Assembly: GCA_902516065.1 (NCBI GenBank)
Contig: CABXXB010000009.1
Coordinates: 1 to 32,091 of the forward strand
Origin: an uncultured Pelagibacteraceae bacterium
GTDB lineage: Bacteria; Pseudomonadota; Alphaproteobacteria; Pelagibacterales; Pelagibacteraceae
Direction: 5' to 3'
DNA: 32,091 bases
The notes below the pieces were generated by a model, which saw nothing but the letters and a program-made list of their open reading frames with translations, had not been told where the DNA came from and did not search any database. Shown here one piece after another: positions 12,783 through 32,091 of the stretch. The first letter of the stretch is position 1. Every line of letters starts with the position of its first letter. Both the position numbers and the translations under genes were made by a program.

Positions 12783-12798
12783 TATTTTTTCTTTTTAA

Positions 12799-12862
12799 TG
12801 TGCTCAAAGCTCTGTCTCCGCAGCTAGGATTCTTACCCTTTCCTAAATTAGCTTTGGGCACA
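12799..12862. other. Long intergenic hairpin / structured RNA-like element between the small Cys ORF and the iron permease
   Basis: Arms TGTGCTCAAAGC (12799-12810) and GCTTTGGGCACA (12851-12862): 11 Watson-Crick pairs + 1 G-U; the 40-nt interior contains a further TAGGA...TCCTA pairing. Confidence 0.7.
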
Positions 12863-12916
12863 AAAAAAATTTTATAAGGTATATCAAAAAATCACATTAT
12901 ATTATAAACCAAAGTT

Positions 12917-27882: not shown

Positions 27883-28639
27883 TTATTATGGTTTTAAGGC
27901 TATATATGTTCATGAGATGAATAGATTCTTAAGAACTGTAGGTCAGTCTATTCTCTCACCAGTGATATCTACATCTTTATATTTTGTTGTTTTTGGTTCA
28001 GTGATTGGTGGTTATATACAAAAAATTGATGGTGTAAGTTATGGATCATATATTGTTCCAGGTTTATTAATGCTAACGTTACTTACTCAATCAATAAGTA
28101 ACACTTCTTTTGGAATCTTTTTTCCAAAATTTAACGGGACTATTAACGAGATTTTAGCAGCACCTATCTCAACACTTGAGACAGTTTTAGCTTTCGTTGG
28201 AGCGGGAGCTACCAAAACTTTAATCGTTGGTACAGTAATATATATCACTGCTACATTTTTTGCTGAAGTGAGTGTTGAATATCCAATGTTAATGATATTC
28301 TTATTAGTTTTGGTTTCTTTTACTTTTGCATTATTTGGTTTTTTAATTGGTGTTGTTAGTAAAAACTTCGAACAAATGTCTATCATTCCATCATTAGTTA
28401 TTACGCCAATGGTATTTTTAGGAGGTAGTTTATATAGTTTAGATATGTTGCCACCATTCTGGCAAACTGTTTCTTATTTTAATCCAGTAGTTTATCTAAT
28501 TGATGGTTTAAGATTTTCATTTTATGGAATATCAGATTTTAATATTTGGATAAGTGTAGGATCCATGGTGTCATTTTTAGTTGTATGCGTCATCGCTGTC
28601 TCAAAATTATTGAAAAAAGGTTATAATATTAAATCTTAA
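27872..28639 (+). CDS. ABC-2 type transporter permease
   Basis: 255-aa membrane protein, VGQSILSPVISTSLYFVVFGSVIGG...PMVFLGGSLYSLDMLPPFWQTVSYFNPVVYLIDGLRFSFYG. Confidence 0.92.
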   Translation: MKFNYYGFKAIYVHEMNRFLRTVGQSILSPVISTSLYFVVFGSVIGGYIQKIDGVSYGSYIVPGLLMLTLLTQSISNTSFGIFFPKFNGTINEILAAPISTLETVLAFVGAGATKTLIVGTVIYITATFFAEVSVEYPMLMIFLLVLVSFTFALFGFLIGVVSKNFEQMSIIPSLVITPMVFLGGSLYSLDMLPPFWQTVSYFNPVVYLIDGLRFSFYGISDFNIWISVGSMVSFLVVCVIAVSKLLKKGYNIKS

Positions 28640-29775
28640 GATGAGACAATTTTCTTTTTAGGATCGTAAAATGGCTTTTCAATTATTTTAGAATTAATCT
28701 CTTTATCATCAAAAATAACTTTCAAATTATTTCCAATTTTTGAATTGTTTATTTCTATCATTGCTAAAGCAATGTTTTTTTTTAATCTAGGAGAATATAC
28801 AGCCGATGTTACTTTACCAATATTTTTACCATCTTTATATATTGCCCAGAAAGTTGTATTTGGTCCTTTTAAAGGGTCACAGTCTAATTCTAAACCAACT
28901 TGTTTTCTTTTAATTCCATTCTGTTTTATTTTTTTTAAAGCTTCTTTACCTATAAAGTTAACCTCATTTTCTAAGTTAACCAATCTATCTAAACCTAGTT
29001 CAAATGGATTTGTATTGATGTCTGCATCTGCATGATAAGAAAGCATTCCACCTTCAATTCTTCTTATAGATGATGTATGACCTGGTTGAAGACCATGTTC
29101 TTTTCCTGCTTCCATTATTTTTTCATAAAGTTGATTACCCTTTGAGCCATCTCTAAGGAATAATTCATATCCAAACTCACTAGACCAACCAGTTCTTGAA
29201 ACAACTAACGGTATTCCATCCAATTTACATTCTCTAAACCAGTAATATTTAAGATCTTTAATATCTTCACCAAATAATTTAATCATTATTTCAGCTGAAG
29301 TAGGCCCTTGTAATTGAAGTGGAGATACGTCTGGTTCTGTAATATTTACATTTAATCCTGAATTCACAGCTACCCCTTGAGCCCATAATAAAACATCGCT
29401 GTCGGCAAGAGATAACCAAAAATGATTTTCGGCTAGTCTTAAAAGAACAGGATCATTGATTATTCCACCCTTATTATTTACGATTAGTACATATTTACAT
29501 TGACCAACTGACAATTTTGAGAGGTCTCTAGGAGTGAGTAATTGAATAAATTTGTAAGCATCTGGACCAGTAATTTCTACTTGTCTTTCAACTGCCACAT
29601 CACAAAGAATTGCTTTTTCAATTAAATTCCAAAAATTTTGTTCGGGACTCCCAAAATCTCTTGGTATGTACATATGATTGTAAACAGAAAAACCTTTGGC
29701 TCCCCATTTGACTGTCGAATCAAAATAAGGCGATTTTCTAATCTGAGTTCCAAAACCAAAATTTTTATTTACCAT
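28636..29775 (-). CDS. GcvT-family protein, DMSP-demethylase (DmdA)-like
   Basis: GFSVYNHMYIPRDFGSPEQNFWNLIEKAILCDVAVERQVEITGPDAYKFIQLLTPRDLS...INDPVLLRLAENHFWLSLADSDVLLWAQGVA...NPFELGLDRLV; resembles DmdA (YNHM, ERQVEI, SDSDV/ADSDV region) more than canonical GcvT. Confidence 0.7.
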   Translation of the reverse strand: MVNKNFGFGTQIRKSPYFDSTVKWGAKGFSVYNHMYIPRDFGSPEQNFWNLIEKAILCDVAVERQVEITGPDAYKFIQLLTPRDLSKLSVGQCKYVLIVNNKGGIINDPVLLRLAENHFWLSLADSDVLLWAQGVAVNSGLNVNITEPDVSPLQLQGPTSAEIMIKLFGEDIKDLKYYWFRECKLDGIPLVVSRTGWSSEFGYELFLRDGSKGNQLYEKIMEAGKEHGLQPGHTSSIRRIEGGMLSYHADADINTNPFELGLDRLVNLENEVNFIGKEALKKIKQNGIKRKQVGLELDCDPLKGPNTTFWAIYKDGKNIGKVTSAVYSPRLKKNIALAMIEINNSKIGNNLKVIFDDKEINSKIIEKPFYDPKKKIVSS

Positions 29776-29877: not shown

Positions 29878-31152
29878 TTAGAATTGTTCAGACTCTGTTG
29901 AGCCATCCATTGCTGTAGTTGAGCTTTTTCCACTACTTATAGTATTAGAAACAGCATCGAAATAAGAAGTACCAACTTCTCTTTGATGTTTAACGCTAGT
30001 GTAACCATCTTTTTCACGAGCAAATTCTTGTTCTTGAATTCTTGAATAAGCTGACATGCCTTCTTTTTTATATTTTTCTGCTAATTCAAAAATAGCAATG
30101 TTTTGAGTATGAAAACCAGCAAGAGTTATGAATTGAAACTTATAACCCATCTTGCTGATTTCTTGTTGAAATGATGCAATTTCTTCATCAGATAAATGTT
30201 TTTTCCAGTTGAATGAAGGAGAACAATTATAAGCTAGAAGTTTGCCTGGAAATTTTTTATGAATAGCATCAGCAAACTTTTTAGCTTCTTCCAAGTTAGG
30301 TGTTGCTGTTTCACACCAAATTAAATCTGAATAAGGTGCGTAAGCTAATCCTCTAGATATTGCTTGATCTATACCTGCCTTAACATAATAAAAACCTTCC
30401 GGAGATCTTTCACCAGTTAAGAAAGGTTTATCGTTATCATCATGATCGTTAGTAATTAGTTTCGCTGCATTTGCATCTGTTCTAGCTAATATAATCAGGG
30501 GCACGTTTGCTATGTCTGCAGCTAATCTTGCAGCTTTTAAATTTTTTATCATCGTCCCAGTTGGTACTAGAACTTTACCACCCATATGACCACATTTTTT
30601 TTCACTAGCTAATTGATCTTCAAAGTGAACACCAGCAGCACCAGCTTTTATAAATTTTTTTGCAAGTTCAAAAACATTTAACGGTCCACCAAAACCTGCT
30701 TCACCATCAGCAATAATTGGCAACATGTAATCAACTTTTTTCTCACTTTTCATATCTCCATCTTTAATTTCCATATGTTGAATTTGATCTGCTCTTATTA
30801 AGGCATTATTCATAGACTCAACTAATTTAGGTGCACTATCGTAAGGGTATAGAGATTGATCTGGGTACATTTCACCAGCACTATTTGCATCAGCCGCAAC
30901 TTGCCATCCACTCAAATAAATAGCCTTTAGACCTGCTTTAGCATGTTGCACAGCATGGTTTCCTGAGAGAGAACCTAGAGTATTTACATATGGTTCTGAA
31001 TTTAATAAGTTCCATAATTTTGTTGATTGGTGTTTGCACATTGAATATTCAATTTTTATTGAGCCTCTCAATCTTTCCACTTCCTCTGGAGTATAATCTC
31101 TTTTAATTCCTGCAAATCTTTTTAAATCGTATGAGATATTTTCTGCGCTCAT
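29878..31152 (-). CDS. aceA: Isocitrate lyase
   Basis: [30 protein letters not shown]...[46 protein letters not shown]. Confidence 0.96.
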
Positions 31153-31215: not shown

Positions 31216-31377
31216 TTAGTTTGAGTCGTCAAGGGTCTCAACTAGATCTTTCATTCCACTTGAACCCCAATCACAATGATCATCTCTCATGTAGATTCCT
31301 CTGCTATTATGTCTAGCAAGGTCTTCATGTCTTATGATTTGAGCCTCATTTTCGTTATTTTTTAATTTATCGTTCAT
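31216..31377 (-). CDS. Small hypothetical protein (53 aa) upstream of aceA
   Basis: MNDKLKNNENEAQIIRHEDLARHNSRGIYMRDDHCDWGSSGMKDLVETLDDSN*; start trimmed from 31413 because the upstream part is operator-like AT repeat. Confidence 0.6.
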   Translation of the reverse strand: MNDKLKNNENEAQIIRHEDLARHNSRGIYMRDDHCDWGSSGMKDLVETLDDSN

Positions 31378-31480
31378 GTAAATTGTATAATTTACAAGAT
31401 TTACAAAATCCATAAAAAAGTTAAAAAAGCTTGTAAATTATAGAAAAAAAATGTAAATATTAATTTACAAAATTTACAAA
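31377..31480. promoter_or_regulatory. Duplicated TTTACAA operator array between small ORF/aceA and XRE regulator
   Basis: AATTTACAAGATTTACAAA (31389-31407) and AATTTACAAAATTTACAAA (31462-31480), 18/19 identical, each preceded by an inverted TGTAAAT; one extra TTGTAAA at 31431-31437. Confidence 0.65.
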
Positions 31481-31488
31481 TAGAAAAT

Positions 31489-32091
31489 ATGAGTCAATTA
31501 AATTTAAAAATCGGGCCAAAAATCAAGGCTTTTCGCAGACAGATGGGTCTTCAAGCTAATAAGCTTGCAGAAGACTTAAGTATTTCTCCCAGTTATTTGA
31601 ACTTAATTGAGGGAGGAAAAAGAAAAATTGATGGAGATTTGCTATTAAAAATTTGTGAAAAACTCAATATTGAGCTTTCTCAACTAACCTCAAAAACTGA
31701 TATAAATTTAGAGAACACATTATCAGAAATTTTGGATGATAAATTATTTGAAGACTTAGATATTTTGAGTCCAGAAGTAAAAGATCTTGTAGGAACAAAT
31801 CCAAAAATAGGAAAAGCCATAGTTAGACTCGGTGATATTTTAAAAAAGAAAGATCATGAGATGATTAATAAAATTGAGAGCATATCTGGTAAAATTGTTG
31901 ATGGAAGAAAAAGTTCATTTCCAGGTGAAGTCATTTCAGATTTTTTACAAGAAAATAAAAATTATTTTCCTAAATTAGAAGATTTTGCAAATAAAGTTTT
32001 TGAAAAGATCCAAAAAAATAATAGAACTAGATACATTGCTTTATGTGAATATTTAAGATCAGAATATGGGATAACAGTTATTGATGTAATT
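31489..32091 (+). CDS. XRE-family regulator, RamB/ScfR-like (short-chain fatty acid / glyoxylate-type regulator), truncated by window end
   Basis: MSQLNLKIGPKIKAFRRQMGLQANKLAEDLSISPSYLNLIEGGKRKIDGDLLLKICEKLNIELSQL...; HTH_3 followed by the beginning of an IrrE-like region (RTRYIALCEYLRSEYGITVIDVI). Confidence 0.8.
   Translation, partial: MSQLNLKIGPKIKAFRRQMGLQANKLAEDLSISPSYLNLIEGGKRKIDGDLLLKICEKLNIELSQLTSKTDINLENTLSEILDDKLFEDLDILSPEVKDLVGTNPKIGKAIVRLGDILKKKDHEMINKIESISGKIVDGRKSSFPGEVISDFLQENKNYFPKLEDFANKVFEKIQKNNRTRYIALCEYLRSEYGITVIDVI

Follow-up and report, generated by a model that had tools for sequence, protein, structure and literature searches.

How do SAR11 bacteria switch their glyoxylate shunt? 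They are among the most abundant marine bacteria and have few transcription factors, and isocitrate lyase (AceA) is the entry enzyme of the shunt. In the literature searched, we found no paper that pairs the regulator RamB with Pelagibacter and no regulator named for the isocitrate lyase of SAR11. A candidate is offered by one locus in a stretch of 32,091 nucleotides (the window) from an uncultured Pelagibacteraceae bacterium (assembly GCA_902516065.1, contig CABXXB010000009.1), in which a short gap between the aceA side and a divergent ramB-like gene contains several copies of one repeat. An earlier interpretation of this DNA, here called the sequence-only reading, had taken the repeats for a local, autoregulated switch of the glyoxylate shunt, and sequence comparison supports this proposal well. 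Very probably, the neighbouring RamB-type regulator has its operator array in these repeats, which would serve a local, autoregulated control of isocitrate lyase.

The sequence-only reading had described two tandem pairs of TTTACAA, 73 bp apart, and their positions, the repeats and the inverted TGTAAAT in front of each were confirmed: AATTTACAAGATTTACAAA lies at 31389-31407 and AATTTACAAAATTTACAAA at 31462-31480, both consist of two TTTACAA units 9 bp apart, and TGTAAAT precedes them at 31377-31383 and 31452-31458. The array is larger than these two tandems. It comprises up to seven half-sites, numbered A to G from the aceA side, with B at 31391-31397, C at 31400-31406, F at 31464-31470 and G at 31473-31479; a third inverted half-site, D, had been overlooked and is among the best conserved. 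One tandem had been placed at the ATG of the regulator, and F-G indeed ends close to it. The other had been thought to overlap the start region of a small open reading frame (ORF) of 53 amino acids (aa) upstream of aceA. In relatives, this ORF starts at 31377 and not at 31413, so that tandem B-C is upstream of the ORF and not inside it, only the single half-site A touches the start codon, and the divergent gap to the regulator measures 111 bp. The features are given one per line; counts refer to 117 loci, one of which (L051) is an artefact caused by gene truncation, or to the 116 non-redundant intact Pelagibacter loci.

29878..31152, minus strand: aceA, isocitrate lyase (PRK15063 equivalog, 728 bits with the cut-off at 562; PF00463).
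31216..31377, minus strand: 53-aa ORF, presumed first gene of the aceA transcript, with the core GIYxRDDHCDWGSSGM; kept in all relatives with an intact locus.
31377..31382, strand not given: half-site A, TGTAAA, overlapping the codon at which the 53-aa ORF starts; without mismatch in 101 of 117 loci, eroded in most relatives whose regulator has two helix-turn-helix (HTH) domains, not conserved as such in sister genera.
31384..31389, minus strand: candidate -10 element of the putative 53-aa ORF-aceA promoter, TATACA (usually TATAAA), abutting B; TATA columns 31386-31389 invariant.
31391..31406, plus strand: tandem B-C, TTTACAA GA TTTACAA, on the 53-aa ORF-aceA side; at most one mismatch in 116 of 116 non-redundant loci, core columns invariant, 9-bp spacing kept in three sister genera.
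31431..31437, minus strand: half-site D, TTGTAAA, lying between both tandems at a distance of 31 bp from C and of 33 bp from F; 114 of 117 loci have it without mismatch.
31451..31457, minus strand: half-site E, (T/A)TGTAAA, with D 20 bp before it and F 13 bp after it; 103 of 117 loci read exactly TTGTAAA, 13 of 117, the window copy among them, have one mismatch, and TGTAAA is invariant.
31464..31479, plus strand: tandem F-G, TTTACAA AA TTTACAA, ending 9 bp before the regulator ATG; at most one mismatch in 116 of 116 loci.
31489..32091, plus strand: ramB-like regulator (ScfR family), first 201 residues, XRE HTH (NF038139 RamB, E=1.7e-21 on the fragment); the gene runs off the contig end at 32091 and its full length was taken from relatives.

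Repeats of this kind might simply turn up in an AT-rich gap, and the genome, itself AT-rich, does hold many looser matches. A Markov model gives, for 111 bp, P of about 1e-4 for even one tandem and about 1e-5 for two, and a genome-wide scan for the tandem without mismatch found no third copy in the window or in the home genome (~60% complete). Chance is refuted by conservation and has a negligible probability: both tandems are strictly kept in all 116 loci, reversed control patterns are rare, and a weighted column profile (effective number of sequences ~12) shows near-invariant half-sites separated by variable sequence.

The distance from B to F is 73 bp in 110 of the 116 Pelagibacter loci and 74 bp in the other 6. 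In four genomes from three sister genera of Pelagibacteraceae, tandem B-C, D and F are all kept. There, C-to-D is 41 bp as against 31 in Pelagibacter, D-to-F is 33 bp in all four as in Pelagibacter, and B-to-F comes to 83 bp, an increase of 10 bp, roughly one helical turn; the two half-sites nearest to ramB have the opposite orientation and E is absent from three of the four genomes. Within the role of a RamB operator array, the tandems might be two independent operators, one per divergent promoter and without physical link, so that the spacing would only reflect two packed promoters. We regard this as evenly poised. The gap is compact and its ends evolved separately, as seen from the flipped half-sites and missing E of the sister genera and from the eroded A of the double-HTH relatives. 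Against this stand the 73-74 bp in 116 loci and exactly 83 bp in four genomes of three genera, i.e. about seven or eight helical turns, and the D-to-F distance that is constant across genera, whereas the spacer between the 53-aa ORF and aceA varies widely among relatives. The same helical phase makes it tempting to speculate that one RamB tetramer bridges both tandems in a short loop or wrapped complex that is opened by acyl-coenzyme A (acyl-CoA) or loss of the iron-sulfur (Fe-S) cluster. PrpR and Paracoccus RamB are tetramers, CoA esters shift Paracoccus RamB to dimers, and its boxes are 32 bp, or 3 turns, apart from centre to centre (PMC10370305, PMC6765138). The bridge is possible, although we hold it to be somewhat doubtful: with one inferred 10-bp change between the two spacings, few independent events speak for a kept phase, and a DNA loop of 73 bp would be short.

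Is the array tied to these two genes? It is located between ramB and the aceA side, and where these two genes are absent, so is the array; as asked of the relatives by the sequence-only reading, both copies are kept wherever the synteny of regulator and aceA is kept in Pelagibacter. aceA is the opposite-strand neighbour of the regulator in 80 of 80 named Pelagibacteraceae/Pelagibacterales loci. Near-complete genomes of the same genus that lack the regulator (G009, G022, G147), and also four genomes tested from another family of Pelagibacterales, have only weak, PrpB-like matches to aceA, or none at all. Elsewhere in these genomes exact tandems occur singly, and those inspected (L053, L061, L075, L076, L078, L079, L081) lie within coding ORFs; a wider regulon was rejected for this reason. 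Control thus looks local, with the array apparently at a single locus.

The regulator itself was predicted to be an XRE plus IrrE-like protein of the RamB/ScfR family, and this holds. The fragment in the window has an XRE HTH (PF01381, E=7.8e-11), and full-length relatives carry in addition an IrrE-like domain (PF06114) and a ScfRs domain (PF09856, E=2.4e-58) and match solved structures of Mycobacterium tuberculosis PrpR (E=1.6e-62). PrpR holds its [4Fe-4S] cluster by four cysteines (C363, C447, C450, C455; PMC6765138), and all four are found, as C-X2-C-X4-C plus a fourth, in 120 of 120 full-length SAR11 sequences; the window copy ends before them. With XRE HTH, IrrE-like and ScfRs domains, the four cysteines, tandem half-sites 9 bp apart and linkage to aceA, the regulator is, judged from its sequence, a ScfR/RamB-family XRE plus IrrE-like protein.

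In eight genomes (loci L040-L047 in G034, G046, G019, G003, G004, G008, G026 and G037), the regulator is ~563 aa long and has two XRE HTH domains per chain. The motif ISPSYLNLIE recurs in both HTHs, intact or nearly so, and these genomes retain the operator array. In a tree of HTHs only, with all eight included, the N-terminal HTHs form one group, which is consistent with a single duplication. We know of no described case of a double-HTH ScfR protein. Such a chain agrees with the view that each tandem is read by a pair of HTHs.

The operator, too, resembles those of known RamB and PrpR proteins. PrpR protects two 8-mers 1 bp apart, TTTGCAAA and TTTGCgAA (PMC3420887), and the SAR11 tandem shares this 8+1+8 bp geometry as a low-GC form of the RamB/PrpR site TTTGCAAA (PMC3420887), which bears out the likeness to a RamB-type site pointed out in the sequence-only reading. 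The verified binding sites of Paracoccus RamB are a pair of 14-bp boxes, TGACAAACCTTACA and TGACAATACTGACT (oligonucleotides 46 and 48; PMC10370305), each of which consists of two half-sites 9 bp apart like the SAR11 tandem TTTACAAA-n-TTTACAAA. In the upstream regions of 30 alphaproteobacterial ramB homologues, we counted 15 occurrences of the tandem form as against 0.18 expected. The switch had been thought undescribed in SAR11, and indeed RamB and Pelagibacter did not appear together in the literature searched; the motif, though, is widespread at alphaproteobacterial ramB homologues. By this recurrence across Alphaproteobacteria, the tandem is an old RamB operator type and not an invention of SAR11. 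What sets SAR11 apart is an AT-rich version of the tandem within a larger array, together with the spacing of 73/83 bp.

The closest parallel is RamB of Paracoccus denitrificans, a class 2 ScfR (PMC10370305). It is alphaproteobacterial as well, divergent from glyoxylate-cycle (GC) genes with their aceB-aceA (GC) promoter, has a [4Fe-4S] cluster, and both activates and represses isocitrate lyase (PMC10370305). Unlike in SAR11, where 73 or 83 bp separate the tandems and extra half-sites lie between, its boxes are 32 bp apart with an 18-bp spacer, its operon begins with malate synthase, and the ligand that it prefers derives from the ethylmalonyl-CoA pathway. PrpR/RamB of M. tuberculosis (IsaR clade; PMC6765138, PMC3420887) is homologous in the C-terminal region with the four Fe-S cysteines, and combines isocitrate lyase control with autoregulation, as proposed here for SAR11; there, two paralogues cross-talk, whereas one regulator was found in SAR11, in which TTTACAAA replaces TTTGCAAA and two residues of the acyl-CoA pocket are changed (F/H155 to Gly, R159 to Ser). 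RamB of Corynebacterium glutamicum (class 1; PMC4448153) is an acetate regulator of aceA and aceB, is negatively autoregulated and recognizes an AA/GAACTTTGCAAA site; unlike the apparently single-locus array of SAR11, it has many genome-wide targets with single 13-bp sites (PMC4448153).

How could the array work? Each 16-17 bp tandem would seat two HTH domains side by side. B-C would lie in the presumed core promoter of the 53-aa ORF-aceA transcript, beside the invariant TATA, and F-G in the presumed core promoter of ramB, so that, from a single gap of 111 bp, one protein would govern both aceA and its own gene. Judged by its homologues, the regulator would be a [4Fe-4S]-dependent acyl-CoA regulator, which probably senses acyl-CoA via its Fe-S-dependent domain. 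CoA or acyl-CoA together with the cluster would keep it in one oligomeric state, in which both promoters are held down or poised, and a change of the acyl-CoA signal or of the iron supply would release or activate them. Bound RamB may be a repressor, an activator or both as in Paracoccus (PMC10370305). Its ligand probably differs from that of Paracoccus RamB, in view of the two changed pocket residues and of Ccr, the key enzyme of the ethylmalonyl-CoA pathway, for which the nine Pelagibacteraceae genomes searched gave no match over cut-off.

A role of iron is in line with published expression data. According to passages of PMC2864753, aceA (SAR11_1240) of Ca. P. ubique HTCC1062 is up 1.58-fold (P=0.091) under iron limitation in a microarray, SAR11_1242, a 'Transcription regulator', is up 1.60-fold (P=0.054), and both belong to the late cluster; the same passages carry no comment on a RamB link of this co-induction. 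In the relative L239, aceA, the 53-aa ORF and ramB follow in this order with the same array, and from gene order and locus numbering we infer that SAR11_1242 is the ramB of this locus. From a shared operator, one would expect the two divergent genes to rise together. Isocitrate lyase of SAR11 is also expressed more highly in Southern Ocean water that is poor in iron than in water fertilised with it, as stated in a passage of PMC6618146 (citing Beier et al. 2015). The response of aceA to iron limitation could also come from another transcription factor, e.g. an iron or general regulator, that binds the sites in place of the neighbouring RamB, and the genome encodes Fur and Irr (PMC2864753). Yet the Fur box is GATAAT-like in the same source, the array follows the ramB-aceA pair in presence and absence, and the same tandem recurs at ramB homologues class-wide and is of the verified RamB/PrpR site type; another factor is therefore very improbable. 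As a separate observation, aceA of L239 is just upstream of an iron ABC transporter operon on the same strand (record positions 1178198-1183681; sfu in PMC2864753), so that iron-response genes neighbour a glyoxylate shunt gene there; the genome of the window carries other genes at this place.

Some points weigh against a RamB operator. The NCBIfam RamB model is matched by full-length relatives along the whole length with 361 bits, as against an equivalog cut-off of 700. This cut-off is passed by 0 of 289 Alphaproteobacteria genomes and 1 of 14 control genomes; missed class-wide, it excludes the narrow equivalog and not the ScfR family. In the acyl-CoA pocket, the position of F/H155 of MtPrpR/RamB is Gly in 120 of 120 sequences and that of R159 is Ser in 118 of 120; R348 is kept. 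A mechanical promoter scan calls no promoter in the 111-bp gap. The changes in the microarray (PMC2864753) are small, with P = 0.05-0.09.

The locus is nevertheless a specific candidate for control of the SAR11 glyoxylate shunt: a putative Fe-S-dependent acyl-CoA regulator with an operator array that is practically unchanged across Pelagibacter. Sensing of iron and acyl-CoA would, by analogy, be a testable extension of the known control of the glyoxylate shunt by RamB, and the question of how SAR11 switches the shunt becomes open to in vitro and reporter tests. One may go further and picture the helically phased pair, bridged by one Fe-S- and acyl-CoA-sensing RamB tetramer, as a direct iron and carbon switch of the SAR11 glyoxylate shunt, whose tandem-reading HTHs were fused by duplication in some relatives. 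In this complete form the picture is speculative and rather unlikely.

Two other explanations were rejected. One is a -35 element at half-site D, paired with a -10 that would follow 17 bp downstream in the direction of aceA and whose first two positions are not conserved. The other is an RNA element, since an Rfam search gave no match near the aceA-ramB locus.

The 53-aa ORF is single copy and present in 68 of 147 Pelagibacterales genomes, in three genera of Pelagibacteraceae. It has no Pfam family and no credible NCBIfam match, and among the Alphaproteobacteria searched nothing convincing was found outside SAR11. Downstream of aceA, at 28636-29775 on the minus strand, is a gene for an aminomethyltransferase that resembles GcvT and dimethylsulfoniopropionate (DMSP) demethylase (386 bits, under the 410-bit DMSP demethylase cut-off). 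A conserved operon of aceA with this gene was rejected: of the 74 loci that extend far enough, only 22 have the second gene adjoining. Far from the locus, a potC RNA motif (RF01751, a cis-regulatory RNA family) was found at 12794-12867 on the plus strand with 62.9 bits.
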